Of a stretch of DNA of 50,218 nt, positions 4,149 through 37,768 are shown piece after piece (within the stretch, counting starts at the first letter, position 1; each line of letters begins with the position of its first letter). This DNA comes from Lachnospiraceae bacterium (GTDB lineage Bacteria; Bacillota; Clostridia; Lachnospirales; Lachnospiraceae), in NCBI GenBank assembly GCA_017442585.1, contig JAFRZM010000048.1, positions 1 to 50,218 of the forward strand. Reading direction: 5' to 3'. A model generated the notes under the pieces. That model was not told the origin of the DNA and ran no database searches. It saw only the letters and a list, made by a program, of their open reading frames with translations. The translations under genes and the position numbers were made by a program.

Positions 4149-4244
4149 ATGAAGGTAGTTGTTAATAAGAGATTTGCGGCCGGGGTTAGACGCTGCATAA
4201 TTGAATGCCCTAAGGTAACGATTAAATGCGAGGGTGTACATTAA
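4149..4244 (+). CDS. Candidate Cys-rich RiPP precursor peptide (locus 1)
   Basis: A 31-residue peptide, too short for usual gene calling, begins one base after the maturase stop, and the AAAGGAGGAGG at the end of the maturase gene serves as its ribosome binding site. A basic N-terminal half (MKVVVNKRFAAGVRR) is followed by a three-Cys segment, CIIECPKVTIKC, and the tail EGVH. It lies between maturase and exporter, the classic place for a substrate. Its C-terminal pattern ending in IKC matches the candidate precursor of locus 3 (CAIVIKC), whose maturase is homologous. No double-Gly cleavage site is evident, so where the leader ends is unknown. Confidence 0.7.
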   Translation: MKVVVNKRFAAGVRRCIIECPKVTIKCEGVH

Positions 4245-4304
4245 TGGCTTTGGCGCGGACAACAAAAGTTGCTCGTGCCAAAAATATTACGGAGGTGCAG
4301 TGTT

Positions 4305-5945
4305 ATGAACGTAATAAAGGAAATATATAGATTCACTAATAGATTTATAAAAGAATATAGAACAAAGATTTTAGGATATGTATTTGCGGGAATGCTTTTA
4401 TATGTGATTACGGCGGTAATACCATTGCTTGTCGGACGTTTTATAGATTCCTTTACTGGCAGCGTTAGTGTAAATAGTATAATAGTATTATGCGCTTGTT
4501 TCTTGGGATTAAGTGTATTACAAGTTATACTTATGTATTATGTAAAAGTTGAAGGAACAAAGATTTCAGTAGGTGCATCGAGCCAGATGAAATCGAAGTT
4601 TTATTTGCATATGCAAAAGGTTTCACCATTGAATAATCGAATTGATGATCCATCTGCATTGACAAGCAGAGTCAATAATCAGTGCGAATATTTGATAATG
4701 TTTCTTTGTAATTTTGGCATGCAATTTCCGGGCAAATGCGTGACAATAGCTATTATTTATATATATCTTTTAATTAAAAACTGGCCAATTGCTATTGTAG
4801 CATTGTTAGTAATTCCTGTTCTTGCCTTCTTTCATAAGAAGACAAGAGATGTGATTTATGAGACAAGTACAGATAAGGAAAGAGCGCGTAACCATTTTTT
4901 TGCTATTATGAATGAGCAATTAGTAAAAATGCCATTAATAAGAATGCATGGTATATTTGGCTTTGAGCAGGAAAGACTTAGAGACGCACAGAAGGATTTG
5001 CAGGATGCTGCTGTAAGGGAACAGCGTAAGAGTTTTAAGTACACATTGTTTGGACAGAATACAGATGTCTTTCTCAAAATCTTTTTGTTTGTATTTGGCG
5101 GCATTTTTATTATGAAAGGGAAAATTACGGTAGGTTCATTTACGGTCTTGTATAGTTATCTTGGAATACTTAGTGACAACCTATCTTACTTTATTGATTT
5201 GAGTCAGGAAGCTTATCAGTATAAAGCATTTATGGATGGATTAAAGGAGATAGATCAACAGAGAGAAGAGAACATAGGAGCGGAAACAATTAAGGAAGTT
5301 AATACTATTGAAGTCAAGGGAATGAATTTTGGATACTCTGACGATAACGTGTTATATCGGGATTATGACAATAGATTTGAAAAGGGGAAAATATATTGTT
5401 TGGCAGGCGATAATGGTGCAGGTAAATCGACCTTGATTAAGAATATAGTGGGTATCTTTATTGATGCTACGGGAGAGAGTGTTTTTTATGACAACAAAAG
5501 CATCTCTGCCTTAGATATTTACGACGTAAGAAATAGGCTTTTTGGCGTTTGCGAACAAGAACCGGATATGCTTGACGATACTATATATAATAATTTATTA
5601 TATATGAAGGATGAAGTCGTTGATTTCGTGCGATTGAAGAAAATATGTGAAAAACTTGAGCTTTTTGACGACATAGGTTCGGTTGAAGAATTTAAAGAGT
5701 TTATAATGAGTAGAAATGCATTAGAATTATCAGGTGGTCAAAAACAAAAGTTTGCTCTCGTAAGAGCAATTTATAAAAATCCGAGCGTATTGGTTTTGGA
5801 TGAACCTTCATCTGCTTTGGATAAGTCTGGAACAGATAAGTTAAAGCTGTTGCTTAATGAATTAAAGGAAGATAAGATAATTCTTATGATATCTCATGAC
5901 TTGGACATGATTGAGTTTGCCGATCAGATTGTCAAAGTCGCATAA
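4305..5945 (+). CDS. ABC exporter, fused membrane and ATPase domains (locus 1)
   Basis: A 546-residue half-transporter: an ABC exporter transmembrane domain of about six helices (residues about 20-310) followed by a nucleotide-binding domain. Walker A is GDNGAGKST, signature LSGGQKQKFALVRA, Walker B VLVLDEPSSALD, and the H-loop ISHD is present. There is no N-terminal C39 peptidase, so the leader must be removed by another enzyme or remain. It would act as a homodimer. It follows the precursor gene and is most simply the exporter of the modified peptide. ATG 4305 has ACGGAGGTG upstream. Confidence 0.85.
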   Translation: MNVIKEIYRFTNRFIKEYRTKILGYVFAGMLLYVITAVIPLLVGRFIDSFTGSVSVNSIIVLCACFLGLSVLQVILMYYVKVEGTKISVGASSQMKSKFYLHMQKVSPLNNRIDDPSALTSRVNNQCEYLIMFLCNFGMQFPGKCVTIAIIYIYLLIKNWPIAIVALLVIPVLAFFHKKTRDVIYETSTDKERARNHFFAIMNEQLVKMPLIRMHGIFGFEQERLRDAQKDLQDAAVREQRKSFKYTLFGQNTDVFLKIFLFVFGGIFIMKGKITVGSFTVLYSYLGILSDNLSYFIDLSQEAYQYKAFMDGLKEIDQQREENIGAETIKEVNTIEVKGMNFGYSDDNVLYRDYDNRFEKGKIYCLAGDNGAGKSTLIKNIVGIFIDATGESVFYDNKSISALDIYDVRNRLFGVCEQEPDMLDDTIYNNLLYMKDEVVDFVRLKKICEKLELFDDIGSVEEFKEFIMSRNALELSGGQKQKFALVRAIYKNPSVLVLDEPSSALDKSGTDKLKLLLNELKEDKIILMISHDLDMIEFADQIVKVA

Positions 5946-14414: not shown

Positions 14415-16331
14415 ATGGGAGTTACGTTTTATGGGGAATACATAAAAGGGATTAGGGAGACTGCGGGGTTATCGATGGAAAAAGCCGCGGAGGGTATTTG
14501 CTCAATTCAAACTCTTTATCGTGCTGAGAATAATAAGGCAGGATTGAGCCCTTTGGTATTTCAAGGAATTATCAGCAGATGCGGAGGATCTCTTAAGGTT
14601 TTCCCTGAATTTGCAAATTGGGCAGACTTTGAATGTTATTATGAGCTAAGCAAGGTGGAATTATGGGCCAAAGCATGGCAGGTTGATAGGGCATATAAAT
14701 GTCTGGAAAAAATTAAAAACCTGAATTTTGCAGATAACCGTCTTCATTATCAAAAATATCTTTACTATGCGGCATATCTGATGAATAGAAATGCATCGAA
14801 GGAATATCTTGTAATAGGGGGAACACTAGAAAAAGCATTAAGAATTACGAAGCCATATATAGATTTGAGAAATATAGAAGATGCGCTTTTTAATGATATT
14901 GAATTAAGAATTATTGCAAGTATTGCGGAAAATATGCTTATGCTTGATAAGAATAATGCAAAAACTGTGTCTGCGATATGTGAGAGTATTATTGAGTATA
15001 TAAAAACAAGTCCATTTTCGGAATTAGACAGAATAAAGCTTTTGATAAGGATAAAGAAACCACTGGTATTGTCATTGCTCTTATTAAAAGAGTATCAAGA
15101 GGCATTAAATGTTGCTGCAGATATTAGACAAAAAACATTAGAGGTAGCGGAAGATGAGCACTTGATTGAAGTGACCTTTTTATTTGGTTTATCGGAGTTT
15201 CTTACAGATAATGAGGATGTAGGAATACATTACATGCGGGCCGCAGTTTTTTCTTCTGATGCAGTTAAGGCACAGTTTGTGCGAAAAGCGATGCATCTAT
15301 TGAATTGGCTCGATATAAAGAGTCCAGAGGTTGAGGAAGCATTGGAGTATTGTCCGAGTCTAAAGGAATACGAGGGTCCTAATTTAAGCGCAGAATTACC
15401 GAAAGATACTAATGAGGTACTTGAAGACAGTGAAGAAATCGTTACCTATGGAAAAATAATTAGAAGGAGACGAAAAGAACAAAAACTATCTGCAAAAGCG
15501 CTTTCAAATGGATTGTGTACAGAATCAGCGCTTTCTAAAATAGAAAATGATAAAGTGACGCCGGATTTGTTTTTGGCAAGAGCGTTATTGCAGCGTTTGG
15601 GAATGTCAGATGAGCCTTTTATTTTTTTTGCAAGTAAGGCGGAAGAAGATATGTATGTTCTGGAAAGGGAATTTGTTGGTGTCGAGCGACATTTTAGAGA
15701 AAAGATACCTGAGTATTTGGAAAAAATGAAGAAAATGGCGGAGATAGCTAATAATAGGTTGTTTTTGCAAAAGATCAATGGTGATATAATTTTTCATGGA
15801 AAAGGAGCAAGTAAGTCGGAACGATTATTAAAAAACTTACGCGAGACATTGCGGGATTTCAATATGGTTAGAGTATTGGAGTATAGATTGAGTAATGACG
15901 AAATAAGTGATGCGTTTGCATATTGTCAAACTGTTAGAGAAGATGCTTCGGTTGCGCAATCTACAAAGTATCTTTATTGTATTTATGAATATGTTAAGCA
16001 GAAATTTCTTGATGATTTTTACTTGAGAAATATGAAGCCGATGATAGTATCATGTTTGATTAATACATTAGGGGTTCAAGATAGATATGATGAGATTATG
16101 GAATTGATGCCGGTAATACAAGATGAGTTTAATCATTTAGATATTCATGAAATGCCGGTTATGTACGCTCATGTTTCAGAAATCTGTGCAAGGCGAAGCA
16201 ATGCGTATTCGCTTAAAGAATACGCATTGTATGCTTATTATTTGTTTTCCTTAGAGGATAGTCGTTTTGAGAAAAGGTTTATAAATAATATAAGGGAAAT
16301 AACAGGAGCGGATATAACGTATTGTTATTGA
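14415..16331 (+). CDS. Double-HTH, TPR-like transcriptional regulator (locus 2)
   Basis: 638 residues with two XRE-type HTH units. HTH1 is about 7-60 (YIKGIRETAGLSMEKAAEG) and HTH2 about 345-400 (YGKIIRRRRKEQKLSAKAL, ESALSKIENDKVTPDLFLARALLQRLGMS). Both are followed by about 240-residue all-helical, TPR-like regions, so the protein looks like two Rgg/PlcR-type regulators fused. HTH2 and its downstream helices resemble HTH1 of the regulator at 31018 (G-I/L-CT...LSKI...L-x-QRLG-x-S). Rgg and PlcR proteins bind short secreted peptides in the helical domain. Directly against its stop codon lies a convergent exported-peptide gene. AAAGGAG precedes the start. Control of the downstream precursor operon is inferred. 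Confidence 0.85.
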   Translation: MGVTFYGEYIKGIRETAGLSMEKAAEGICSIQTLYRAENNKAGLSPLVFQGIISRCGGSLKVFPEFANWADFECYYELSKVELWAKAWQVDRAYKCLEKIKNLNFADNRLHYQKYLYYAAYLMNRNASKEYLVIGGTLEKALRITKPYIDLRNIEDALFNDIELRIIASIAENMLMLDKNNAKTVSAICESIIEYIKTSPFSELDRIKLLIRIKKPLVLSLLLLKEYQEALNVAADIRQKTLEVAEDEHLIEVTFLFGLSEFLTDNEDVGIHYMRAAVFSSDAVKAQFVRKAMHLLNWLDIKSPEVEEALEYCPSLKEYEGPNLSAELPKDTNEVLEDSEEIVTYGKIIRRRRKEQKLSAKALSNGLCTESALSKIENDKVTPDLFLARALLQRLGMSDEPFIFFASKAEEDMYVLEREFVGVERHFREKIPEYLEKMKKMAEIANNRLFLQKINGDIIFHGKGASKSERLLKNLRETLRDFNMVRVLEYRLSNDEISDAFAYCQTVREDASVAQSTKYLYCIYEYVKQKFLDDFYLRNMKPMIVSCLINTLGVQDRYDEIMELMPVIQDEFNHLDIHEMPVMYAHVSEICARRSNAYSLKEYALYAYYLFSLEDSRFEKRFINNIREITGADITYCY

Positions 16332-16481
16332 TTAGTGAGCTTTCTCGGGATCGCGGTAGTCATCATTGTCGTCACAATAAATTTCATATGGATTGTCATG
16401 AGATATATGATTACATAGCGGTGTTGCGAATAAGGTGAGAACACATAGGGTCATAATAAACAGTGTTAATAGTTTTTTCAT
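16332..16481 (-). CDS. Exported small peptide, candidate pheromone (locus 2)
   Basis: 49 codons on the minus strand, ATG at 16481 with AGGAAG nine bases upstream. The N-terminus is a clear export signal: MKK, then a hydrophobic core (LLTLFIMTLCVLTLFATP). The exported part is about 25-28 residues, very acidic and polar, with two Cys counting the one near the signal end (LCNHISHDNPYEIYCDD...). Its stop codon abuts the TGA of the regulator, tail to tail. A short exported peptide beside a TPR-type regulator resembles PapR with PlcR and SHP with Rgg, hence the pheromone proposal. A small secreted effector or immunity peptide is an alternative. Confidence 0.7.
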   Translation of the reverse strand: MKKLLTLFIMTLCVLTLFATPLCNHISHDNPYEIYCDDNDDYRDPEKAH

Positions 16482-16513
16482 TATAGTTTGCTTCCTCGTC
16501 TTTCTTAAATCAG

Positions 16514-16528
16514 TATGCTAATAGCATA
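16514..16528. promoter_or_regulatory. Perfect palindrome in the promoter of the exported peptide
   Basis: TATGCTAATAGCATA is a 7-1-7 perfect inverted repeat, 33 bases upstream of the minus-strand start at 16481 and overlapping where its promoter should be. It resembles the general form of a PlcR box (TATG...CATA). It is an operator candidate for the adjacent double-HTH regulator. A similar TATGCTA/TAGCATA palindrome lies at 8071-8088 before an unrelated HTH gene, so the half-site may not be specific. Confidence 0.5.
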
Positions 16529-16548
16529 ACTAATAGATTACATAGCTT

Positions 16549-16594
16549 CCATAGACACTTTGGGAAAGAAAAAACTTTCCTAAAGTGTCTATGG
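16549..16594. terminator. 20-bp hairpin between exported-peptide and precursor genes
   Basis: Two 20-base arms (16549-16568 and 16575-16594) pair with one G-T/G-U position and an A6 loop. A T-rich stretch follows on the plus strand. It could stop transcription arriving from the regulator side and isolate the precursor promoter at 16624-16649. A structural or regulatory role is also possible, because locus 3 has a hairpin in the same relative place. Confidence 0.6.
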
Positions 16595-16623
16595 ATTGTT
16601 TGTTTTTGGGATAGTAATATGTG

Positions 16624-16649
16624 TTTGTAAGGACTTACAAATCTATAAT
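16624..16649 (+). promoter_or_regulatory. Precursor promoter with operator over the -35 region
   Basis: A perfect inverted repeat, TTTGTAAGGACTTACAAA (16624-16641), ends two bases before a TATAAT (16644-16649). No good -35 hexamer is present at the expected place, and the palindrome occupies it. That is the layout expected for a promoter needing an activator bound over -35. The double-HTH regulator is the natural candidate. AAGGAAGG follows before the start at 16673. Confidence 0.6.
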
Positions 16650-16672
16650 TTTTAAAGGAAGGAAGTGAAAAT

Positions 16673-16780
16673 ATGGTAATTAAAAAGGGCAATGAACAGT
16701 ATATGGAAGAAAGTCTTAAGATGGTAGCACATACAAACAACGGAAATTGCTATGGAACATGTGGCACTACGCAGGGTTAG
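16673..16780 (+). CDS. Candidate RiPP precursor peptide (locus 2)
   Basis: A 35-residue peptide behind its own promoter and AAGGAAGGAAG. The polar N-terminal part (MVIKKGNEQYMEESLKMVAH) looks like a leader. The C-terminus, TNNGNCYGTCGTTQG, is a Gly/Thr/Asn-rich core with two Cys. One Cys follows an N-x-x-C spacing (NGNC), as in streptococcal NxxC peptides where a radical SAM enzyme makes a Cys-Asn thioether; that parallel is suggestive only. The maturase gene follows 81 bases later across a hairpin. It resembles neither the locus 1 nor the locus 3 candidate, in line with its more distant maturase. Confidence 0.75.
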   Translation: MVIKKGNEQYMEESLKMVAHTNNGNCYGTCGTTQG

Positions 16781-16810
16781 TGGTAATTGTCGTAATAAGA
16801 CATGGTGAGT

Positions 16811-16843
16811 ATGGGATATTGGACTAGTTGTTCAATATCCCAT
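16811..16843 (+). terminator. Hairpin between precursor and maturase (partial terminator)
   Basis: ATGGGATATTG (16811-16821) and CAATATCCCAT (16833-16843) form a perfect 11-bp stem, extendable by an A-T and a G-U pair. It lies between the precursor stop and the maturase ribosome binding site (AAGGAG). No strong T run follows. Such hairpins commonly reduce readthrough so that substrate is made in excess over enzyme; they also protect upstream mRNA. Confidence 0.65.
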
Positions 16844-16861
16844 ATATTTAAGGAGATTAAG

Positions 16862-18076
16862 ATGTTTATACCTGAATACATAAAAATTGATGATCAAGGC
16901 GAAAGAATTGTAATTCATTCAAACCTTGATGGTACGGTAATAGAATTAACAGAGAAAGAGTATATTGAGGATTTCAAACGGCTTAGAAGTGGAAATACTA
17001 TTACAAATAGTAAATTGATCGAAGTTTTGAAAGACAATAATGTAATTATTGATTATGATGCTTTTAAAAGCATTAGTTATAGAATCAGGCAACATATGGA
17101 TAAAAGCTTAATTCTAACTATTCTTCCCACAGAAGGGTGCAACTTCAGATGTACATATTGTTATGAAGCGCATGATAATACAAGAATTAGCGAAACGCTT
17201 ATGGAAGAAATAGTTAAGTATATTATGCAAGAAGCACGAATTGTAAAATCTATAGTAGTTAATTGGTTTGGGGGAGAACCAACGCTTGAGGCAAATTTGA
17301 TTATAAAATACGCAAATATAATTAAAGATATAGTGAAAAATAATGATGTAGAATATAAAGCGTCAATGACAACTAATGGATATCTTTTAGATGAAAAGAT
17401 GTTTCGGAAATTTTATGATGCGGGAATAACCAATTATCAGATTACACTGGACGGGTTTGAACATGATAAAAAAAGAGTATTTGAAAATGGACAGGGAACA
17501 TTAACAAAGATTTTAACCAATCTTAGAGCCATAAAAAAACTGCCGGAAGAATATAAATATACCGTTGTACTTAGGCGTAATATACTGAAAAATGAAAATA
17601 TGGAATGGTATGATTTTTTGGCTGAAGGGTTTGCGGATGATAAGCGCTTTAAGCTTAATATTAGAAAAGTAAGTGATTTTGGAGGCGAAGGAATAGAGTC
17701 TTTGGATCTTTTGGATGGTGATGCAGTTTTAAAGAAACATATAGAATATGCTTCACGCAGCTTTGATTTATTGGATGATGATAATACAGACCAGTTATAC
17801 TCTAAAATGTGTTATGCAGCTTATCCAAAGGGATTTGTTATTTGCCCGGATGGAACGATTGAGAAGTGTACGGTAGCGCTTCACAAGGAATACAATATTG
17901 TTGGCAAAATAGTTGTTGGCAAAGGGTTTTATATAGATGCAGCAAAGAATAAAATGTGGTCAGATGCTGAAATAAGCAAAAGGTGCATGGGTTGTAAGTC
18001 TGCGTTGAGCTGTAACAATATGCAGTGCCCGAGGCGGCGTTTTTCATCAGAGACTAGTGCCGTGTGCTGTGAGTAG
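16862..18076 (+). CDS. Radical SAM/SPASM peptide maturase (locus 2)
   Basis: 404 residues. The cluster motif CNFRCTYC gives Cys93, Cys97 and Cys100, followed by WFGGEP. The C-terminal SPASM-type Cys set includes KMCYAAY, FVICPDGTIEKC, RCMGCKSALSC, MQCPRRR and a terminal VCCE. The N-terminal ~85 residues precede the barrel and probably recognise the leader. It shares the fold but little detail with the maturases of loci 1 and 3, so it probably makes a different crosslink. ATG 16862 follows AAGGAGATTAAG; an in-frame ATG at 16802 lies before the hairpin and is not preferred. The ABC exporter follows after 20 bases. Confidence 0.88.
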   Translation: MFIPEYIKIDDQGERIVIHSNLDGTVIELTEKEYIEDFKRLRSGNTITNSKLIEVLKDNNVIIDYDAFKSISYRIRQHMDKSLILTILPTEGCNFRCTYCYEAHDNTRISETLMEEIVKYIMQEARIVKSIVVNWFGGEPTLEANLIIKYANIIKDIVKNNDVEYKASMTTNGYLLDEKMFRKFYDAGITNYQITLDGFEHDKKRVFENGQGTLTKILTNLRAIKKLPEEYKYTVVLRRNILKNENMEWYDFLAEGFADDKRFKLNIRKVSDFGGEGIESLDLLDGDAVLKKHIEYASRSFDLLDDDNTDQLYSKMCYAAYPKGFVICPDGTIEKCTVALHKEYNIVGKIVVGKGFYIDAAKNKMWSDAEISKRCMGCKSALSCNNMQCPRRRFSSETSAVCCE

Positions 18077-18096
18077 ATAGGTGGAGGTGAAGGCTC

Positions 18097-19689
18097 TTGA
18101 AGCGATATATAAAAAAAGAATGGAAACTATATTTGAATAGCATAGTTCTTTTTATGTTTTCCAGGTGTTCTTATCTTGGATTGTTATATCTTAATATGTT
18201 GATGCTGGATTATTTAATCGCGGGAGATTTGGAAAAGTTGTTGATGAATCTTGCAATGTCGCTTGGTGCGAGATATGCATGGTTGACGTTAAAAACATAC
18301 TCAGAAATAACTGAAATGAAGCTTTTGGCAAGACTTAACACGGATATACGAAATGATATTAATGGGTGTCTTGCAAACATGTCCTATAAAAAATACACAG
18401 AGAATGAGTTGGGTGTATATCAATCGTGGTTAATGAATGATATAACGAAGATGGATGAACTTGGTTTTTCAAATTTATTTGCGATTACGCATTATTGTAT
18501 AGATATTGCTCTTGGTATTGTGGCGCAGTGTTTTATTAATCCCTTGCTTTTGCTTACCTCTTTGGCAATTGGGGGGCTGACATATTTATCTACAAAACTT
18601 TCGGATTCAAAGATGAAAGATAGAGCTCAGAATGTTACTGAATCGATGGAAGTTTACGCTGCAAAAGCCAGAGAGTGTCTGGCTGGTTTGTTCGTACTCA
18701 GAAGCTTTAATCACAAGGATCTTTTTGCGTCAAGAATGACAGAAGAGAGTGAGAGGATGGAATCTGCGAATTATCAATATGGTTCACAAAAGGAGAAATA
18801 CTATTTGCTGACAACGTATGTGGCTTGTATTTTAGGATTGGTACAAACGGTGGCCATGTGTCTTATGATTATAGCAGGCTGGATTCCGTTACATATAATT
18901 TTTGGAGGCGGTAATATTTTAAGTCTTGTAGGAGATAGTTTAAACAATGTTGCCGCATGTAGAATTCCGTTTGTGTCGTCAAAGGTTTATTTTGATAAGG
19001 TTAGAGCTTTACGTAAGGGTTGCGAGGCGGTTGATACAAAAGAAAATTGTGAAACAGGAGGAGATATAGAGTTCTCGGAGGTATCTTTCGCCTATGATAC
19101 AAATAAAATATTTGACAAGTTTTCTTACTGTTTTAATAGGGGTAAGAAGTATGCCGTTATAGGAAAATCAGGAACAGGTAAGTCAACACTGTTAAAAATG
19201 CTTACAGGATATATTGAAGACTATGCCGGAAGAATTTTAGTAAATAAGCAAGATATCAAAAAAATTTCTGAGCGAAGTCTATTTAGGAATATGACCTATA
19301 TCGCCCAAGATACATTCCTTTTTAACGACTCTATAATCAATAACATTACGATGGGTGATGACTTTACGAAAGAGGAGATCGATAAAGCTATAGAGAAAGC
19401 TTCCCTTACAGAGGATATAAAGCAGATGGAAGACGGAGTTAATACCATAGTTGGTGAGAACGGTAATCTCCTTTCCGGAGGACAGAAGCAACGAGTGGGC
19501 CTTGCAAGAGCATTTTTACATAACAAAAAAGTTCTCCTTATAGACGAGGGTACGTCTGCGCTTGATCACAAGAATGCTGAAAGAGTAGTTGATAATCTTC
19601 TTAGAGATAAGGAGCTTACAGTTCTATTTGTGAGTCATACTCTTTCGGATGAAAAGCTTAAGCAGTTTGATGAGGTGCTTGCTTTATAA
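18097..19689 (+). CDS. ABC exporter (locus 2)
   Basis: 530 residues: an ABC exporter membrane domain (about 15-290), then an ATPase domain with Walker A GKSGTGKST, signature LSGGQKQRVGLARA, Walker B VLLIDEGTSALD (Gly where Pro or Ala is usual) and H-loop VSHT. No peptidase domain is present. The start is TTG 18097 with GGTGGAGGTG upstream. It most likely exports the locus 2 peptide, acting as a homodimer. A bidirectional terminator follows. Confidence 0.82.
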   Translation: MKRYIKKEWKLYLNSIVLFMFSRCSYLGLLYLNMLMLDYLIAGDLEKLLMNLAMSLGARYAWLTLKTYSEITEMKLLARLNTDIRNDINGCLANMSYKKYTENELGVYQSWLMNDITKMDELGFSNLFAITHYCIDIALGIVAQCFINPLLLLTSLAIGGLTYLSTKLSDSKMKDRAQNVTESMEVYAAKARECLAGLFVLRSFNHKDLFASRMTEESERMESANYQYGSQKEKYYLLTTYVACILGLVQTVAMCLMIIAGWIPLHIIFGGGNILSLVGDSLNNVAACRIPFVSSKVYFDKVRALRKGCEAVDTKENCETGGDIEFSEVSFAYDTNKIFDKFSYCFNRGKKYAVIGKSGTGKSTLLKMLTGYIEDYAGRILVNKQDIKKISERSLFRNMTYIAQDTFLFNDSIINNITMGDDFTKEEIDKAIEKASLTEDIKQMEDGVNTIVGENGNLLSGGQKQRVGLARAFLHNKKVLLIDEGTSALDHKNAERVVDNLLRDKELTVLFVSHTLSDEKLKQFDEVLAL

Positions 19690-19705
19690 ATAAATAGGAT
19701 ATAAA

Positions 19706-19733
19706 AAATCCCGAGGATTGCTCCTCGGGATTT
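19706..19733. terminator. Bidirectional terminator between locus 2 and ilvE
   Basis: AAATCCCGAGGA (19706-19717) and TCCTCGGGATTT (19722-19733) form a perfect 12-bp stem with a TTGC loop. An A run precedes it and TTTATA follows, so it can serve both convergent genes. Confidence 0.9.
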
Positions 19734-19751
19734 ATAGTTGTTGTAATGTGA

Positions 19752-19914
19752 ATTACATCTCGACTGTCGTCTCGATGTGGCGCTCGTCAAGGTATTATTT
19801 GTGCAAGCACGTAATACTTTGACTCGCTTATTACATCTCGACTGTCGTCTCGATGTGGCGCTCGTCAAGGTATTATTTGTGCAAGCACGTAATACTTTGA
19901 CTCGCTTATTACAT
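19752..19914. repeat. 78-bp tandem direct repeat at the ilvE stop
   Basis: Two identical 78-bp units start at 19752 and 19830, and a third begins with ATTACAT at 19908. The repeat phase coincides with the ilvE stop: ATTACAT read on the minus strand is the final Met codon and TAA. Each unit contains an imperfect hairpin (19786-19823 and 19864-19901) built from GTCAAGGTATTA and TAATACTTTGAC. The copies look identical, implying recent duplication. The element may be the ilvE terminator or a small repetitive sequence. Confidence 0.9.
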
Positions 19915-31017: not shown

Positions 31018-32826
31018 ATGGATTACATAAGTAAACAGATAGAAAGGTTGATAGATTCAGCTAAGCATAATGAGTGGTTTAGCGAAAGAAAGCTTGCGTC
31101 AGGCATTTGTACACATGGAATGCTGAGCAAAATCAAAAAGGGTGCTGCGATTAAAGATCCACGGTTTTTAACGATATTAATGCAACGTCTCGGAAAATCT
31201 GCTAATAAGTTGGAGCTTATAGTTTCAAAAAGTGCTCTGCAAATAATGGAAGACCAGATTTTATTTGATAGATATATCGATGAAGATGATATTGATAATG
31301 CTGTTTTAATGTTAGAGTCTTATCGAAAGATTGCTGAGCAGCGATTGGCAACAAATATAGAAAAGATGTATTACTGGCGTAATGATGCAATGTTAAAGCA
31401 TTATTGTTTGAAGGACTATAAAGGTGCGTTAGAGTCAATAACAAGAGCAATCGAGGAAACTGCTGCAGAGGCATTAGAAATAGATATTAATCAGCGTATC
31501 TTATCATCAATTGAGCTCGAGAACTTTTTGGAATTATGGTACTTGAAAAGCGTTATTTTACATGAAGCAAGGAACGCAAGTGAGATAGACAGACTTGCAG
31601 AGCGGATTCTGATGATAGAACAATATGTTGTCACGCATATCACTGATGAAGAAGAAGTAGTATCGATTATGTCAAAATATATTTGGCTTAAGGCTCAAAT
31701 AAATCTATATCTTGGAAAAAACGAAATAGCGGTGAAAGAGTGTGTTGATATTTTGAAGAAAATGCAGAGATATGCATTTCTTCAGATGTTGCCGGGAATT
31801 CTTGAAATAATAGTCGAATATGGTAAGGATTATATGGATAGTGGTGAGTATGATATTTATACTAATTATTTCAATGCAATAAACTTTCTGCTTAATGATA
31901 GTGGTATGAGTGGTTATAAATGGCAATCATTCTTAATAAGAAAAGATCGTACTATATATCATTGTGATTCGAGTTTTATCTCAAACCAACGCCATTTTTT
32001 GGATATCTCCCAAGAAGAAGTTGCAGAAAGAGCCGGTATTAGTATCGAGTCCGTGTCGCGCATAGAAACAGGAAGGACATCTCCTACCGGCTTTAATTGT
32101 GCAATGATAATGAATGCTTTGGGAATTGATGCAGAGAAATATAATACAATAATGCAAACAGCTGATTTCGAACTTGTCGAAGAGATGTGGTCCGTTTGTG
32201 TAGAGGGGTTTGCAGATAATTATATTAGGGGAGAGGAAATCTTAAAAAAACTAAAGAGGGATATAAACATAGACTGTATAAGTAATCAGGCAATGATAAT
32301 GTATCTTGAAAATGCCATTTCATTACATAATGGCACGAGTGATTTTGCGAAAGAAATCGGTAAAGCAAAAGAATTATTATCTCATACATACAATATAGAT
32401 GCGGATTCATCATATCGAGTGCCGTTATTGTATGAGTTTGAATTATTGCTTACGATAGCGATAAGAAGCCGAATAATTGGTGATATAGAAGAAGTCAGAA
32501 GAATATATGGTTCGGTAATAGAACGATGCGAAAATGATTGCGTTGATTTAAACTTGAGACAAAGAATTTATGGTGTGGCATTGTTTAAAAATGCATATAT
32601 TATACGGGATTTTAATGGCTTAAAAAAAGCCATTAGGTATGAAGTTGCTAATCGCAGCTATCATTGGGCGGGTACTGTATTATGCGGAATATCATGTGAA
32701 TTATACAGTATAGACAGAGAAAAAGCCAGAAGAATGTGTGAGCATTCATACTGGCTTTCAAAGTTAGCAAATAATAATAATTATGCAGATGATATTAGAA
32801 AACTTATAAAAGAATACTATCAGTGA
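31018..32826 (+). CDS. Double-HTH, TPR-like transcriptional regulator (locus 3)
   Basis: 602 residues with two HTH units. HTH1 is about 5-55 (SERKLASGICTHGMLSKIKKG, then LMQRLGKSANKLELIVSKS). HTH2 is about 320-375 (QRHFLDISQEEVAERAGIS, ESVSRIETGRTSPTGFN). Each is followed by a long all-helical region of TPR type. The plan equals that of the regulator at 14415, and HTH1 here most resembles HTH2 there, including the QRLG-x-S turn. CCAGGAGATGTT precedes the ATG. A convergent exported-peptide gene overlaps its last 23 bases. It probably controls the locus 3 genes in response to a peptide, by analogy with Rgg and PlcR. Confidence 0.85.
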   Translation: MDYISKQIERLIDSAKHNEWFSERKLASGICTHGMLSKIKKGAAIKDPRFLTILMQRLGKSANKLELIVSKSALQIMEDQILFDRYIDEDDIDNAVLMLESYRKIAEQRLATNIEKMYYWRNDAMLKHYCLKDYKGALESITRAIEETAAEALEIDINQRILSSIELENFLELWYLKSVILHEARNASEIDRLAERILMIEQYVVTHITDEEEVVSIMSKYIWLKAQINLYLGKNEIAVKECVDILKKMQRYAFLQMLPGILEIIVEYGKDYMDSGEYDIYTNYFNAINFLLNDSGMSGYKWQSFLIRKDRTIYHCDSSFISNQRHFLDISQEEVAERAGISIESVSRIETGRTSPTGFNCAMIMNALGIDAEKYNTIMQTADFELVEEMWSVCVEGFADNYIRGEEILKKLKRDINIDCISNQAMIMYLENAISLHNGTSDFAKEIGKAKELLSHTYNIDADSSYRVPLLYEFELLLTIAIRSRIIGDIEEVRRIYGSVIERCENDCVDLNLRQRIYGVALFKNAYIIRDFNGLKKAIRYEVANRSYHWAGTVLCGISCELYSIDREKARRMCEHSYWLSKLANNNNYADDIRKLIKEYYQ

Positions 32827-33001
32827 TTAGATAGCCATATAATTCGGAATCATCGCTTGGCGGTGCTGGATTATTAGAGCCAGAATAATCCATTATTACG
32901 GGCGCAGTGAATGCGTAATTGAAGGAAAGTGACTCACAGTCAAGATATGTTAAGATAAATAATAATAGTATCAAGCAGGTTTTAAGCAATGCATTTTTCA
33001 T
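32804..33001 (-). CDS. Exported small peptide, candidate pheromone (locus 3)
   Basis: 65 codons on the minus strand from ATG 33001, with AGGAGG nine bases upstream; an in-frame upstream extension lacks such a site. The N-terminus is an export signal (MKNALLKT, then CLILLLFILTYL). The remaining ~40 residues are polar and Tyr/Ser/Pro/Asp-rich (MDYSGSNNPAPPSDDSELYG) and end in a hydrophobic tail (YLITDSILL). It overlaps the regulator 3' end by 23 bases tail to tail. Location and design match the peptide at 16332-16481, though the sequences are dissimilar, as expected for specific signal peptides. Role as pheromone is inferred. Confidence 0.75.
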   Translation of the reverse strand: MKNALLKTCLILLLFILTYLDCESLSFNYAFTAPVIMDYSGSNNPAPPSDDSELYGYLITDSILL

Positions 33002-33066
33002 AGATGAATGCCTCCTAATAAGATTTGTATAATATAGCAATAACAGAGATGATTATTGTGTGAAAT

Positions 33067-33110
33067 GTCATAAGGGTAGCCATATACATAATAGTGGTTA
33101 CTCTTATGAC
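33067..33110. promoter_or_regulatory. 15-bp hairpin upstream of locus 3 maturase
   Basis: GTCATAAGGGTAGCC (33067-33081) pairs with GGTTACTCTTATGAC (33096-33110) using two G-U pairs and a 14-base loop. It lies between the exported-peptide promoter and the maturase, the same relative place as the 20-bp hairpin of locus 2. No T run follows, so an operator or insulating structure is as likely as a terminator. Confidence 0.5.
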
Positions 33111-33127
33111 GTGTATTGGTAATAATT

Positions 33128-33144
33128 CATATGTTAGTATTTAT
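33128..33144 (+). promoter_or_regulatory. Shared motif before the locus 3 maturase
   Basis: CATATGTTAGTATTTAT closely matches CATATGGTTAGTATTCAT at 30932-30949, in the same orientation upstream of the regulator. Two copies in the two control regions of one locus suggest a binding site for a common factor, possibly the double-HTH regulator. Confidence 0.4.
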
Positions 33145-33173
33145 ACGAAGTAATTCATACGGAGGTAATGGAC

Positions 33174-34484
33174 GTGAAGATTTCGTATTACAATTTTTAT
33201 AAAACAGATGGAGATGGCTGCATTATATATAATTCAAGAACGGGTAATATGGCACGTTTGGATAAGGAACACTATGACAAATTGAATGAATTCATTATCA
33301 ACCATAAAGCGATAGATGATGAACAGTATGAAATTAATCTTAGGCGCGGCGGATTTATTATTGCCGATGATATAGATGAAAGTAAATTGATAGAGTATTA
33401 TGCTCAAAAAGTTAAACATGCAATGGAAATTCTGAATCTGGTTATAGCGCCTACTGCCGATTGTAATTTTAGATGTAAGTATTGTTACGAGAAAGAACAG
33501 CTTGCAATATCTTATATGGATAAGGATGTGGAAGATGCAATAATACGATTACTTGAGTCAAAGATTGACGGTTTGCAAACGTTAAATCTCACGTGGTATG
33601 GTGGAGAACCTTTATTAGCATTAGATACAATAAGGGATTTATCGCGGTTAATTATTAAAATGTGTGATAATAACGGAGTTGTATATGAACCGGGTATTAT
33701 TACCAATGGATATTTGCTGACACCGGAGAGACTTCAGGTATTGTATGATTTAAATATATATAATATACAGATTACGTTAGATGGAGGCAGAGATATACAT
33801 AATGAAAGGCGGCCCTACAAAGACGGAACCGGTACATATGATGTGATCATGACGAATCTTAAGAATTGTAAAGATATTATTCGAGAGGGGATGGTATTAC
33901 GCATTAATACTGATAAGATCAATATTGATAGTGTGGATGATGTTAGGAGAAGGATATCTGAATTGCAGCTGGAAGATAGAATACATATTTATATGGCGAG
34001 GGTTAATACGACAAATGATTGTTATGATAATAATAAGTGCTTTACTTGCGGTGAATTCTCAAAACTAGAGTTGGGATTTGATAAAAATGACTATAAATCT
34101 AAGAAAGTTTTATCAAACAAGTATCCGAAGCCAAAGGCTGTTAATTGCATCGCAGAGATAGAAAACTCAATGGTTATAGGTCCTGATGGCGAGGTTTACA
34201 AGTGCTATGCTGACATAGGAATCAAAGAATATTCTATAGGTAATGTGAAAACCGGTCAAAAGACTATTAATAAGCGATTCCTGGATTTCATGATGTATAA
34301 TCCAACATCTTCTGAAAAGTGCGGGAAATGTAAGTTCATGCCAATATGTATGTCCGGCTGCGCAAGTGAAAGAATTGCCGGTAAAGAGACTTGTACACGA
34401 TATAAATACATTTTGGATGATTTTATAGATATATGGACAGGGTTAAAAGAAGAGGAAAAAAGGAATGCTAAAGAAAGCATATAA
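33174..34484 (+). CDS. Radical SAM/SPASM peptide maturase (locus 3)
   Basis: 436 residues. The cluster motif CNFRCKYC gives Cys97, Cys101 and Cys104, followed by WYGGEP. A SPASM region ends in CGKCKFMPICMSGC with a further Cys in KETCTRYKY; another Cys pair lies in NKCFTCGEF. It is a homologue of the locus 1 maturase over its whole length, including the N-terminal YNSRTG and DKEH segments, so the two probably catalyse the same type of crosslink. I prefer GTG 33174, eight bases after GGAGG; the ATG at 33168 is only two bases from it. The exporter start overlaps its 3' end by 20 bases. Confidence 0.9.
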   Translation: MKISYYNFYKTDGDGCIIYNSRTGNMARLDKEHYDKLNEFIINHKAIDDEQYEINLRRGGFIIADDIDESKLIEYYAQKVKHAMEILNLVIAPTADCNFRCKYCYEKEQLAISYMDKDVEDAIIRLLESKIDGLQTLNLTWYGGEPLLALDTIRDLSRLIIKMCDNNGVVYEPGIITNGYLLTPERLQVLYDLNIYNIQITLDGGRDIHNERRPYKDGTGTYDVIMTNLKNCKDIIREGMVLRINTDKINIDSVDDVRRRISELQLEDRIHIYMARVNTTNDCYDNNKCFTCGEFSKLELGFDKNDYKSKKVLSNKYPKPKAVNCIAEIENSMVIGPDGEVYKCYADIGIKEYSIGNVKTGQKTINKRFLDFMMYNPTSSEKCGKCKFMPICMSGCASERIAGKETCTRYKYILDDFIDIWTGLKEEEKRNAKESI

Positions 34485-36123
34485 TTATGTATCACTGTTG
34501 AAACGACCGATTAAGGATAACAAGAACCGTATGATAATATATGCGGTGTTGTCTATGATGGTGAGTATATGTTCTATTGTAGAGCCGTATGTGTTCGGAG
34601 GTTTTTTGGACAATCTGCTGACTGTAAGAAAAATACGTTTTATCGTTATATATAGCGTGGCCTTTGCGAGCATTAAACTTATGGGAATAGGTTTGGATTT
34701 TTGCATGAGTATATTATTGACGAAGCTTGATGCAAATATAGTTATGGAGTATGAAGCAGATATTCTTGAGCACGTTCAGAACCTTCCGTTGGCCTTTATT
34801 CAGAAGAAAGATACATCCGAATTTATTGATAAGATAAATAATGATGTAAAAGCGATGACATCTTTTTTGCTGAATACAATAATAGGTATATTTGGTACGT
34901 TAGTATCGACAATAATAGCAATGATATATGTGCTTAAAACTGATTACCTTTTTGCTGTATGCATTTTTATGATGTTTCCTTTGATGTATCTTATTTATAA
35001 GATGTTTGAGAAAAGGCTTTATATAGTAATGAGAGAAACAGCTGATTCACGTACTAAGTTTTTTGCTGCGCTTGAGGAAGAATTATTTAATATAAAATAC
35101 ATTAAAGTTCAGAGTGCCAGTAAAGTTTTAAAGAATCGCTTCTTAAAAGCAGGACTCATGACAAGAGATAAGAATATACGAAGAGAAAAGGCAACAAGCG
35201 GATTTGAGATTGTTAGTTCCAATATGGATCTTATGGCAAAAGTCGCTTTGTTTTTCTATGGTGGATATAAAATCTCTGAAGGAGAGATGACGATAGGTAC
35301 ACTTGTCATTCTTATGTCTTATGTTCCGATGATAATGAACGGACTTATGTCTTTTGCAAATGCGGGTAAAAAGGTGCAGGAATGTGGTGCATACTATGAC
35401 CGCTTAAAGGAGATAGAGGATGTTGAAGAGGACAGGAATGGTAAGATTAATATAGACAGAATTAATAGAATTGATATTAAAGGCCTTTCTTTTCAATATG
35501 ATGATAGGCAGATATTCGACGATTTTGATTATTCATTTGAGAAAGGCAGGATTTATGTGCTTAACGGAGTGAACGGTGCGGGGAAAACAACTCTTGCCAA
35601 TCTCCTTCTGGGAATGAACATTAATGATTACCAAGGTGATATAAGCTATAACGGAATATCAATAAGAGAGCTGTATATGCGTTTTTTGAGACGACAGGTA
35701 ATAGGAGTGGCAGAACAGGAGCCTTCACTTTTGAAAGGAAGTATAGAATACAATATAACTTATAATAATACTGAAAACCATGGTGCATCCATAGCTGAAA
35801 TGATAGATGCCGTAGGCTTCAAAGAATTGATCAATGACCTTGAAAACGGAATGAAAACAGAGATTATTTCGGATGGCGATAATCTGTCAGGAGGCCAGAA
35901 ACAGAAGGTTTCAATACTTCGAGCACTGAATAAAAATGCAAGTCTTCTTGTCTTTGATGAGCCGACTTCAGCGCTTGATGCCGGAACTAAAGAAAAATTT
36001 ATCAGTTATCTTAGAAGTAAAAAAGACGATTGTATAATAATAATTATTACCCATGATCCTTTTGTTGTGAACAATGCGGATGTAATCGTAACTGTTGAAC
36101 GTTTTAAATGTGAAGGGATATGA
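34465..36123 (+). CDS. ABC exporter half-transporter, first of a pair (locus 3)
   Basis: 552 residues: an ABC exporter membrane domain (IYAVLSMMVSICSIVEPYVFG; two segments around 140-190; others to about 300), then an ATPase with Walker A GVNGAGKTT, signature LSGGQKQKVSILRA and Walker B LLVFDEPTSALD. No peptidase domain. It is a clear paralogue of the next gene (shared SIVEPY, EEELFNIKYIKVQSA/EDELFDIKYIKLQSA), so they arose by tandem duplication and probably act as a heterodimer. AGGAAAAAAGG precedes the ATG, which overlaps the maturase. Confidence 0.87.
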   Translation: MLKKAYNYVSLLKRPIKDNKNRMIIYAVLSMMVSICSIVEPYVFGGFLDNLLTVRKIRFIVIYSVAFASIKLMGIGLDFCMSILLTKLDANIVMEYEADILEHVQNLPLAFIQKKDTSEFIDKINNDVKAMTSFLLNTIIGIFGTLVSTIIAMIYVLKTDYLFAVCIFMMFPLMYLIYKMFEKRLYIVMRETADSRTKFFAALEEELFNIKYIKVQSASKVLKNRFLKAGLMTRDKNIRREKATSGFEIVSSNMDLMAKVALFFYGGYKISEGEMTIGTLVILMSYVPMIMNGLMSFANAGKKVQECGAYYDRLKEIEDVEEDRNGKINIDRINRIDIKGLSFQYDDRQIFDDFDYSFEKGRIYVLNGVNGAGKTTLANLLLGMNINDYQGDISYNGISIRELYMRFLRRQVIGVAEQEPSLLKGSIEYNITYNNTENHGASIAEMIDAVGFKELINDLENGMKTEIISDGDNLSGGQKQKVSILRALNKNASLLVFDEPTSALDAGTKEKFISYLRSKKDDCIIIIITHDPFVVNNADVIVTVERFKCEGI

Positions 36124-36124
36124 A

Positions 36125-37768
36125 ATGAAGAGTTTTTTAAAGTATATGGGAGTTTTTAAAAGGCAATTCAAAAAATATCGTGGAGAGACGATTGCTTATA
36201 CTGTTATGGCAACAGCTTTATATTTGTTATCAATAGTTGAACCATATCTTTTGGGCAGTTTTATAGATATGTTGTTAATTAATAAAACTCTGAAATTTAT
36301 AGTTGTGTATAGTAGTATTTATTTAGGTGTAAAATTGATGAGTTGCATCTGTAACTATTGTGTAAAAGTCATCGGAACGGGCACTCAATGTGATATCAGC
36401 AGAGAATATGAAGCAGAAATGCTGGAGCATCTGCAATTTATTCCGATTTCATATCATCGGAAGAACGGGAGCTCACAGTTTGTTTTTAAAATGAATGGTG
36501 ACGTTCAGTTACTATCGCTTTTTATAATCAATACATTTATAACATTGTTTGGAACGGCTGCAATGCTGATAGCTTCGGCTTTGTATATTGGTATTAAGGA
36601 TTATAAGTTTGGAATTATTGTACTGATTCTTTTTCCGATTGCTTATTTTATCTACAATATGTTTAAAAAACGGTTGAATAAGGTTATGCAGGATGCTGTT
36701 AATCTGCATACGGCACATTTCGAGGCTCTCGAGGATGAATTATTTGATATTAAGTATATTAAGCTGCAGAGTGCAGGCAATGTATTACGGAGGCGTTTTT
36801 TAGACGCCGCGAAAGCCTATAGAGATGCTGAGATTGGAGAATCTAAGATTTTGAACGTATACGAAGCAATAGGTAAAAATATGGATCTTGTCGCAAAGAT
36901 TATACTGTTTTTTTATGGCGGTTTTAAAATTTTAAATGGTGATATGTCGGTCGGGGTATTTGTTATCATTGCTTCATACTTACCGAATGTAATGAACGGA
37001 TTGGTATATGTTTTGAATTTTGGAAAGGATCTTCAACAGTGTGAAGTATTTTATGAACGCCTTCGTGAGCTGTGGGATATTGAAGAAGATGTAAACGGAA
37101 CCGAGAATTTTACGAGAATTGATAAAATAGAGCTTAAGAATGTAACGTTTGGTTATGGAAATAAGGATATAATTAAGAATTTTAGCTATACTTTTAAAAA
37201 TAACAAGATCTATGCTATAGAAGGCGAGAATGGTGCGGGAAAGAGTACTCTTCTGGATCTGATTTTGGGAATCAACATAAATGAGTATACCGGTGAAATA
37301 GAGTATAATGGTAAGTCTATAAAAGAACTTGATATGCGGGAATTGAGACGTAATAATATCGGGGTAGTGGAACAGGAGCCGGTTTTGATGGCAGACAGTA
37401 TTCGGTATAATATTGTTTATAATAGCAAAGAGCGCTCAGAGCAGGAATTAAAGCAGTGCATAGAAAGCGTGAATCTGGATGATTACATTAATGAAACTGA
37501 TAAAGGACTTGAAACTGTAATTAATTCTGAATCAACAAATCTTTCGGGTGGACAAAAGCAAAAGATAGCTCTTGCACGTGCAATATATAAGGACGCGAGT
37601 CTTCTTATACTGGATGAGCCGACTTCCGCACTTGATATGAGGACAAAAGAAAAGCTTGCAGAGTTGCTTAAAACAATAAAAGAAGGCAAGATCATTATAA
37701 TGATTACGCATGATAAAGAGTTCAAATCAATCGCTGATGAAATTGTTCATTTAGATGCGATTGCATAG
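36125..37768 (+). CDS. ABC exporter half-transporter, second of a pair (locus 3)
   Basis: 547 residues with the same membrane plus ATPase plan: Walker A GENGAGKST, signature LSGGQKQKIALARA, Walker B LLILDEPTSALD, H-loop ITHD. The catalytic motifs look intact in both partners, so neither site is obviously degenerate. ATG 36125 starts one base after the previous stop, with GAAGGGAT upstream. Locus 3 thus has two exporter genes where loci 1 and 2 have one. Confidence 0.87.
   Translation: MKSFLKYMGVFKRQFKKYRGETIAYTVMATALYLLSIVEPYLLGSFIDMLLINKTLKFIVVYSSIYLGVKLMSCICNYCVKVIGTGTQCDISREYEAEMLEHLQFIPISYHRKNGSSQFVFKMNGDVQLLSLFIINTFITLFGTAAMLIASALYIGIKDYKFGIIVLILFPIAYFIYNMFKKRLNKVMQDAVNLHTAHFEALEDELFDIKYIKLQSAGNVLRRRFLDAAKAYRDAEIGESKILNVYEAIGKNMDLVAKIILFFYGGFKILNGDMSVGVFVIIASYLPNVMNGLVYVLNFGKDLQQCEVFYERLRELWDIEEDVNGTENFTRIDKIELKNVTFGYGNKDIIKNFSYTFKNNKIYAIEGENGAGKSTLLDLILGININEYTGEIEYNGKSIKELDMRELRRNNIGVVEQEPVLMADSIRYNIVYNSKERSEQELKQCIESVNLDDYINETDKGLETVINSESTNLSGGQKQKIALARAIYKDASLLILDEPTSALDMRTKEKLAELLKTIKEGKIIIMITHDKEFKSIADEIVHLDAIA

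Follow-up and report, generated by a model that had tools for sequence, protein, structure and literature searches.

The stretch analysed here, referred to as the window, comprises 50,218 nucleotides (nt) of contig JAFRZM010000048.1 from a Lachnospiraceae bacterium (GenBank assembly GCA_017442585.1). At positions 14415-19689 it contains a locus, locus 2, in which reading of the sequence reveals a tandem helix-turn-helix (HTH)-tetratricopeptide repeat (TPR) regulator, a convergent exported open reading frame (ORF), several palindromes, a cysteine-containing peptide gene, a hairpin, a radical S-adenosylmethionine (SAM) maturase and an ATP-binding cassette (ABC) exporter (Table 1). The 191 bp separating the exported ORF from the peptide precursor gene hold both short palindromes and a third one with 21-nt arms. 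We consider it probable that these parts constitute a PlcR-like activator and a Phr-like pheromone which, with positive feedback, would form a self-contained circuit controlling a radical SAM operon for a ribosomally synthesised and post-translationally modified peptide (RiPP). The initial annotation had already described a self-contained locus, and all the parts are present, but the layout is not confined to locus 2, since a second locus of the window (locus 3, 31018-37768) repeats it.

Table 1. Features of locus 2 and locus 3 of the window (aa, amino acids).
Feature	Position	Strand	Remarks
Tandem HTH-TPR regulator, RRNPP/PlcR-like receptor	14415..16331	+	638 aa; HTH profile, internal duplication, PlcR profile match
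Convergent exported ORF, candidate Phr-like pheromone precursor	16332..16481	-	49 aa; stop codon adjoins regulator stop
Perfect palindrome TATGCTAATAGCATA	16514..16528	none	overlaps predicted -10 of peptide promoter
-10-like TATGCT, peptide side	16523..16528	-	24 nt past operator edge
21-nt-arm palindrome, putative common operator of divergent peptide and RiPP promoters	16548..16595	none	core GGAAAG-N6-CTTTCC at 16563-16580
-10-like TAATAT, RiPP side	16615..16620	+	24 nt past operator edge
Second perfect palindrome TTTGTAAGGACTTACAAA	16624..16641	none	adjoins TATAAT on its upstream side
TATAAT, alternative -10 for RiPP operon	16644..16649	+	sequence reading
RiPP precursor, Cys peptide	16673..16780	+	35 aa; two Cys, CYGTCG close to C-terminus
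Hairpin separating precursor and maturase genes	16810..16844	+	fold z -5.8; likely stoichiometry attenuator
Radical SAM (SPASM-type) peptide maturase	16862..18076	+	404 aa; PF04055; best NCBIfam TIGR04463
ABC exporter	18097..19689	+	530 aa; PF00664 and PF00005
Locus 3 tandem HTH-TPR regulator	31018..32826	+	602 aa
Locus 3 convergent exported ORF	32804..33001	-	65 aa; overlaps regulator 3' end by 23 nt
Locus 3 palindrome between divergent peptide gene and maturase	33067..33110	none	inverted-repeat scan
Locus 3 radical SAM maturase	33168..34484	+	part of 33168..37768
Locus 3 ABC exporters (two)	34465..36123 and 36095..37768	+	gene reading

The tandem regulator and its relatives

A family HTH profile places HTHs at residues 1-76 and 336-419 of the locus 2 regulator; this profile was made from N-termini, that of the regulator itself included, so that only the second, mid-protein HTH constitutes an independent test. 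Pfam matches HTH_3 in two stretches, the best being 349-398, and a Pfam scan of the single regulator sequence did not find TPR. The N-terminal and C-terminal halves are 25% identical over 223 aa (E 1e-9, BLASTP of a single pair without composition correction). When a profile built from 24 proteins of the family was compared with solved structures, it matched PlcR (2qfc) with an E-value of 1.7e-13 over residues 6-283 of 293, and 4yv6, which we take to be Rgg2, and ComR with 4.9e-6 and 1.4e-4, respectively, both over their HTH parts. A wider family profile matches TPR chains, including designed and kinesin TPRs. Thus, the double-HTH, TPR-like regulator of the initial annotation was recovered, the TPR part at the level of profiles (PlcR match, TPR chains), and an architecture distinct from that of Rgg was also confirmed: judged by profile comparison, the nearest solved relative of this tandem protein is PlcR rather than Rgg.

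The same organisation is conserved among relatives, as 82 of 84 tandem proteins carry an HTH both at the N-terminus and in mid-protein according to the family HTH profile. In a tree of the halves of 82 proteins, the nearest neighbour of an N half was another N half in 78/82 cases and that of a C half another C half in 75/82, and no half had its own other half as nearest neighbour, which indicates that the internal duplication is old.

A profile search that counted tandem and single forms jointly and scored at most three first-look candidates per genome gave matches at E 1e-20 or better in 49 of 397 genomes of the same family, a number that includes the genome of the window. Across 391 genomes of the class, six match at 1e-30; full-length tandem proteins are present in two of them, both belonging to the family of the window, and the matches outside those two are single-length or half matches. 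Tandem forms outside the family are represented by genome G114, from another family of the same order, which carries three (loci L021-L023), and by locus L165 of a Defluviitaleaceae record. A contig scan of named genomes yielded 49 loci, the closest of them in Roseburia, Acetatifactor, Butyrivibrio and other Lachnospiraceae, and the layout was seen in relatives that include Roseburia inulinivorans and Anaerocolumna aminovalerica. The genome of the window itself carries two further systems, L216 and L225. A split form was observed in L086, L088, L089 and L225, where two neighbouring single HTH-TPR genes overlap or lie a few nt apart, the downstream one carrying the convergent exported ORF.

The convergent exported ORF and the divergent palindrome

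The initial annotation had noted a convergent 49-codon exported ORF adjoining the stop of the regulator, and this gene is indeed present; a home-made score finds a lysine start and a hydrophobic core in its product. The idea of a convergent exported ORF came from the first nine regulators, and it was then counted as an ORF of 25-100 aa on the opposite strand, with its stop between -45 and +10 nt from the regulator stop, a positive start and a hydrophobic core, after removing identical proteins and using other genes of the same loci as controls. Under this definition, the ORF is found at 56/86 tandem regulators, 9/57 single regulators and 39/1016 control genes, in agreement with the neighbourhood conservation that had been expected of homologues. 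The criterion was relaxed once, after two near misses, by allowing the hydrophobic core to begin by residue 20 instead of 16; the stricter first version gives 34/55 tandem regulators, 5/40 single regulators and 12/543 control genes. In named genomes fetched later and separately, the ORF accompanies 19/29 tandem regulators and 17/407 control genes, and in the class-wide set 3/8 single regulators have it. In 31 of the 56 abutting cases the stop lies at exactly -3, that is, the two stop codons overlap.

Conservation as coding sequence, which the initial annotation had made a condition of its proposal, is apparent among relatives. In the L177/L178 pair (47 codons), the nonsynonymous rate (dN) is 0.05 and the synonymous rate (dS) 0.66, third positions accounting for 13 of the 18 changes, and dN is lower than dS in 7/7 further pairs (dN/dS about 0.3-0.8), which had been chosen by amino-acid similarity, a choice that favours low dN. 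Outside the signal the peptides are highly variable. In the clade of the regulator (L132-L149), 7 of 17 aligned peptides, counted by eye, carry a motif G[IV]xxC[GSA][DE] after the signal, where the window peptide reads YEIYCDD. A promoter at 16508-16480 was considered and rejected because its -10 falls on the start codon.

The 21-nt-arm palindrome, upstream of the peptide gene, has arms that are 95% complementary (folding z -8.3), and 0/60 shuffles of its upstream region reached its score. In the clade of the regulator, an inverted repeat AAATGGAAA-N8-TTTCCATTT, the right half of which is the best conserved, occurs both ahead of the peptide gene and in the gap that separates the regulator from a divergent operon. 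A weight matrix was made from 15 of these sites, which therefore score by construction; the sites outside that set (L135, L137, L139, L141, the last three at the regulator side, and L140, L143, L147, L148) reach 10.9-43.9, whereas Markov shuffles totalling 278 kb never exceeded 10.6. The site was not found at the peptide genes of L146 and L149 or at the regulators of L133, L138 and L149, and is weak (9.5) at the L141 peptide. L135, from the culturable Roseburia inulinivorans DSM 16841, carries both operators. A motif-free test, based on the longest word common to the regulator-upstream and peptide-upstream regions, showed that 5/60 tandem loci share at least 14 bases, with 0.45 expected; four of these matches are the clade site, and L111 supplies the remaining one.

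Outside the clade, other palindromes, often CCATGACG...CGTCATGG, occupy the same place. Inverted repeats scoring 18 or more appear in 18/53 peptide upstream regions and 2/250 sampled control upstream regions; with a cut of 12 the figures are 28/53 and 25/250, and 12/53 peptide upstream regions had no inverted repeat scoring 8 or more. The window palindrome carries the outer CCAT..GAC and inner GGAAA/TTTCC layers seen in other loci. In the genome of the window (assembly 92% complete) its arms occur together only at locus 2, the one other match being a half with three mismatches, and a reversed control pattern gives as many.

The position of this element relative to the promoters is also conserved. 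In the clade, a -10-like hexamer was defined as a 4/6 match starting 21-25 nt beyond the edge of the 38-mer site, and it is present at 12/12 peptide-facing promoters (mean of other windows 2.0) and at 13/13 promoters facing the divergent operon (mean 2.6); regulator-side promoters have it in 5/13 cases only (mean 3.1). The peptide sites of L133 and L138, which lie 244 and 410 nt from the start codon, were left out of these counts, as was the regulator-side site of L140, where the sequence is the same as in L139. By eye, the -35 slots of most of these promoters are poor. In an independent check outside the clade, 21 of 31 loci with a palindrome, a set that includes close relatives of one another, show a -10-like hexamer starting 39-43 nt from the palindrome centre, a range that holds the distance of the clade (19 + 23 = 42) although the palindromes span 21 to 71 nt; overlapping or later windows gave 19 (42-46), 13 (45-49) and 12 (51-55), and the others listed 1-9. 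In the window, the hexamers at both sides of the palindrome keep this spacing (Table 1), the chance of one such match being about one promoter in five on the clade background.

This arrangement is that of class II activation, in which an activator is bound just 5' of a promoter that lacks a good -35. Fixed spacing and recurrence between divergent genes point to an operator, since a terminator would be expected to keep neither, and the 21-nt-arm palindrome is thus most likely the operator of the regulator. This changes the meaning of the 20-bp hairpin of the initial annotation: the palindrome is there, with 21-nt arms, but spacing and clade sites favour an operator over a plain hairpin. A double role is possible, in which the hairpin formed in the plus direction could also stop regulator transcripts. 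In Rfam, the hairpin gave only sub-threshold microRNA-like matches, which were judged to be chance.

Two short palindromes flank this element, one over the peptide -10 and the other 5' of the second TATAAT on the RiPP side, and perhaps they serve a second regulator. Both had been pointed out previously, as palindromes of the peptide promoter and of the Cys peptide promoter, and they lie where described, the first overlapping the predicted -10 TATGCT and the second just 5' of TATAAT, but neither is exceptional by itself: the best exact-arm repeat of the region is the RiPP-side one, with p 0.065 in 200 shuffles.

The RiPP operon and neighbouring loci

By its genes, locus 2 fits the pattern of a radical SAM RiPP cluster, with precursor, radical SAM maturase and exporter. 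The hairpin noted 3' of the 35-aa peptide gene is present. The maturase matches Radical_SAM (PF04055) in Pfam, and the same scan did not find SPASM, so that the SPASM maturase of the initial annotation stands for its radical SAM part; the SPASM assignment comes from long matches to rSAM/SPASM models of NCBIfam, every one below its cut-off. The best of them, TIGR04463, reaches 157 bits for a cut-off of 525, and Clo7bot (TIGR04334) 127 of 600 bits, so that the enzyme lies near both groups but far under the scores asked of their equivalogs. The exporter proved to have the ABC membrane and ATPase domains, and a peptidase domain was absent among its Pfam matches. Small Cys peptides, analogous to that of locus 2, lie close to several related maturases; the precursors of the L177/L178 pair show 0 synonymous changes, and their dN/dS carries no information.

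A maturase-type radical SAM gene lies within 6 kb of 21/86 tandem regulators and of 0/59 single ones (Fisher 6e-6), counts that include both window loci and L127 (a 113-aa piece) and that come from flanks varying in length between loci. ABC exporters are near 36/86 tandem and 24/59 single regulators, and with rates so alike they do not set the tandem form apart. Other cargo, annotated in few loci, comprises an M16 peptidase with an MFS exporter, ThiF with an M16 peptidase (L067), an ABC protein like the lactococcin-972 exporters but below cut-off (L070), and FtsX permeases (L118), while L061 has a histidine kinase and L113 a transposase.

Among the 397 family genomes, the nearest relative of the locus 2 maturase (37% identity) is found at L082, beside a tandem regulator that has a convergent exported ORF at +51; the ABC exporter of L082 shares 35% identity with the locus 2 exporter, no precursor was recognised there, and the maturase ORF lacks its N-terminal part. 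At 8767-11439 of L082, an 890-aa ORF fuses the N-terminal part of a tandem-HTH regulator to a radical SAM maturase in one frame, which may have arisen as a natural fusion of regulator and maturase or be left over from a deletion.

In locus 3 there is no obvious Cys precursor between the operator and the maturase (33067-33202) or 5' of the regulator, and its exporter genes are gapless. Locus 1 of the window (2844-5945), with its radical SAM maturase and ABC exporter, has no tandem regulator; right after the maturase, a Cys ORF of 31 aa (4149-4244) is a candidate precursor, and in L177/L178 the Cys precursors occupy the same place. A 78-bp direct repeat in two copies (19753-19908), 3' of the locus 2 exporter gene, overlaps a weak, sub-threshold Rfam match to Clostridiales-1 RNA (19697-19838, minus strand), outside the locus.

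A candidate pheromone circuit, its alternatives and its meaning

In the proposed mechanism, the product of the 49-aa ORF would be exported by Sec and trimmed outside, and its C-terminal part would re-enter the cell, in whose own genome SBP_bac_5 oligopeptide-binding proteins are encoded, and bind the TPR domains of the tandem regulator. The peptide-loaded regulator would then bind the 21-nt-arm palindrome and recruit RNA polymerase to the divergent promoters at its two sides, whose -35 boxes are poor; one of them would drive the pheromone gene, closing a positive feedback, and the other the precursor-maturase-exporter operon. The duplication, by placing two different HTHs in one chain, would suit asymmetric, two-layered half-sites. 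What the sequences show directly is the anatomy of the locus, the homology of its parts and their co-occurrence, a small ORF that relatives conserve as coding sequence, and a conserved operator at a fixed distance from the promoters; from these we infer export, maturation, binding, that the regulator activates, and which part of the peptide would be the mature pheromone. The earlier suggestion of an analogous regulator-peptide pair coupled to a modified-peptide operon in Clostridia thus gains support, at the level of sequence, from co-occurrence, coding conservation and PlcR homology.

Several results weigh against this circuit. Secretion signals were called by a home-made hydrophobicity rule, the 4/6 criterion for -10-like hexamers is loose, and the 21-25 nt window was picked after part of the promoters had been read. 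Locus 3 fits the spacing at its maturase side only, not at its peptide side. The clade weight matrix misses the window operator, which shares only the core and the geometry, and a scan of the window gave no operator copies beyond a 3-mismatch match within a gene; the palindrome also has a T-rich 3' flank and was scored terminator-like as well. The relatives searched yielded no close orthologue of locus 2, so that the dN/dS evidence comes from relatives and not from its own 49-aa ORF or 35-aa precursor. Of 11 maturase matches outside the genome of the window, those of L082 and G222:C19 (L124) are near a tandem regulator, and the other nine showed no such regulator in the stretches examined. Finally, the expectation that homologues have an adjacent exported ORF holds for part of them, since 30/86 tandem and 48/57 single regulators lack an abutting one. 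At least 8 of those 30 tandem misses have a displaced or start-less ORF: it lies 30-110 nt off in L028, L082, L139, L140, L146, L148 and L216, its frame is present with a disrupted start in L178, and L027 has a doubtful ORF only.

It is unlikely, taking the promoter geometry into account, that the receptor is a repressor and that the same pheromone pair relieves repression of the RiPP operon. TprA is reportedly a repressor, the two short palindromes overlap -10/-35 regions, a repressor-like position, and the opposite-strand layout matches TprA2/PhrA2 as far as its layout description goes; however, the palindrome stands at a fixed distance 5' of mostly poor -35 promoters in 25/25 clade cases and 21/31 elsewhere, as class II activators do. 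Still less likely is an exported peptide that acts as an immunity or toxin-like product without signalling to the receptor, the regulator sensing another ligand. The variability of the peptides outside the signal and the regulators without an abutting ORF would be in line with this, but the stop-to-stop abutment persists in 56/86 cases despite differing cargo, the receptor has PlcR-type homology, and an operator lies at the peptide's own promoter, as an autoinducing pheromone would show.

We regard as very improbable the explanation that the 21-bp palindrome does no more than end the regulator transcript, as an intrinsic terminator working in both directions, and that the convergent ORF encodes a small secreted peptide with no relation to the regulator. 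Such an element would account for the strong RNA hairpin with its T-rich tail and terminator-like score, for the A-run and T-run that flank several palindromes of the family, and for the absence of an extra exact copy of the arms at most of the loci tested, that of the window included. Against it stand half-site sequences common to several genera, the additional location of the clade site between regulator and divergent operons, where a terminator is not expected, the further exact copies that L111, L070, L130 and clade members carry elsewhere, the fixed spacing to -10 boxes, and a 42-nt palindrome that is identical in L177 and L178 although the flanks differ. Activation by a pheromone-loaded regulator thus remains the preferred reading.

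Among known systems, TprA2/PhrA2-LcpAMT of Streptococcus pneumoniae is described as having its peptide gene on the strand opposite to the regulator, by ABC transporters and a lanthipeptide cluster (PMC5436883), and a TprA/PhrA-type system is likewise stated to regulate lantibiotic expression (PMC13361665). In both TprA/PhrA and TprA2/PhrA2, a regulator with an opposite-strand small peptide gene stands beside ABC transporters and a RiPP, and TprA2/PhrA2 with lcpAMT is the closest layout to locus 2. Orientation alone, put forward as distinct in the initial annotation, is therefore not new. The TprA systems differ in their lanthipeptide, not radical SAM, cargo and in lineage; the TprA receptor is of single length, and no tandem duplication is known in these systems.

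In PlcR-PapR, of the Bacillus cereus group, the activator acts through a palindromic box and itself controls the gene of its Sec-exported peptide; PlcR is the best solved match of the locus 2 regulator profile. It has 293 aa, compared with 638 aa and two HTH-TPR units here, where the peptide gene is convergent and the RiPP target local. The streptococcal Rgg/SHP systems for radical SAM RiPPs (RaS-RiPPs; streptide, tryglysin, streptosactin) similarly have an RRNPP-type regulator and a small peptide by a precursor, a radical SAM enzyme and an exporter, and the locus 2 ABC protein resembles GggC (NF050039, E 7e-40, below cut-off). Locus 2, from Lachnospiraceae, has no Rgg and no SHP, PlcR is the better match, and the signal is probably Sec-type; SHPs are short, unlike the 49-aa peptide with its long signal.

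RRNPP_detector, which finds receptors and propeptides beside biosynthetic clusters, has a default receptor length of 250-500 aa, and in the part of the source available Lachnospiraceae are absent from its families with RRNPP-linked clusters (PMC10075063). With that default, tandem receptors would be excluded by construction. Compared with the five-criterion signature used there, the propeptide lies within the size range (49 aa for 10-100 aa), a TPR peptide-binding domain is recognised at the profile level, and receptor and propeptide are direct neighbours with abutting stop codons; the 638-aa tandem receptor is outside the length range, so that the system may be said to work like RRNPP rather than to be a canonical member. 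The parts available of two other works (PMC9765709, PMC12700828) make no mention of tandem receptors, and a literature search by title and start of abstract gave no description of such a tandem-receptor system among the matches listed. Comparison with these surveys supports the view that, in this candidate pheromone-receptor pair coupled to a RaS-RiPP operon, lineage and receptor form were not covered by them.

A broader proposal, which we find doubtful, is that of a largely unrecognised tandem RRNPP clade, mainly in Lachnospiraceae, acting as a single-chain switch with two pockets. Its halves would read an asymmetric or two-layered palindrome as a pseudo-dimer (or with four HTHs as a dimer), and it could sense two peptides at once, such as the pheromone together with either the RiPP product or the pheromone of a rival, before activating peptide-weapon operons; the conservation of both HTHs (82/84) and the separate clustering of the halves are cited in its favour.

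For the biology of Lachnospiraceae, the pheromone circuit provides a named receptor, pheromone, operator and target as a prediction of how these bacteria may turn on their RiPPs and further export cassettes. Its receptors lie beyond the default length filter of the published survey, which may therefore have missed a class of peptide signalling used by gut commensals. The recurrence of the layout in dozens of related bacteria points to a family of cell-to-cell signalling systems and, if the circuit is true, it offers testable peptides and DNA sites, and a synthetic peptide could wake silent RiPP clusters.

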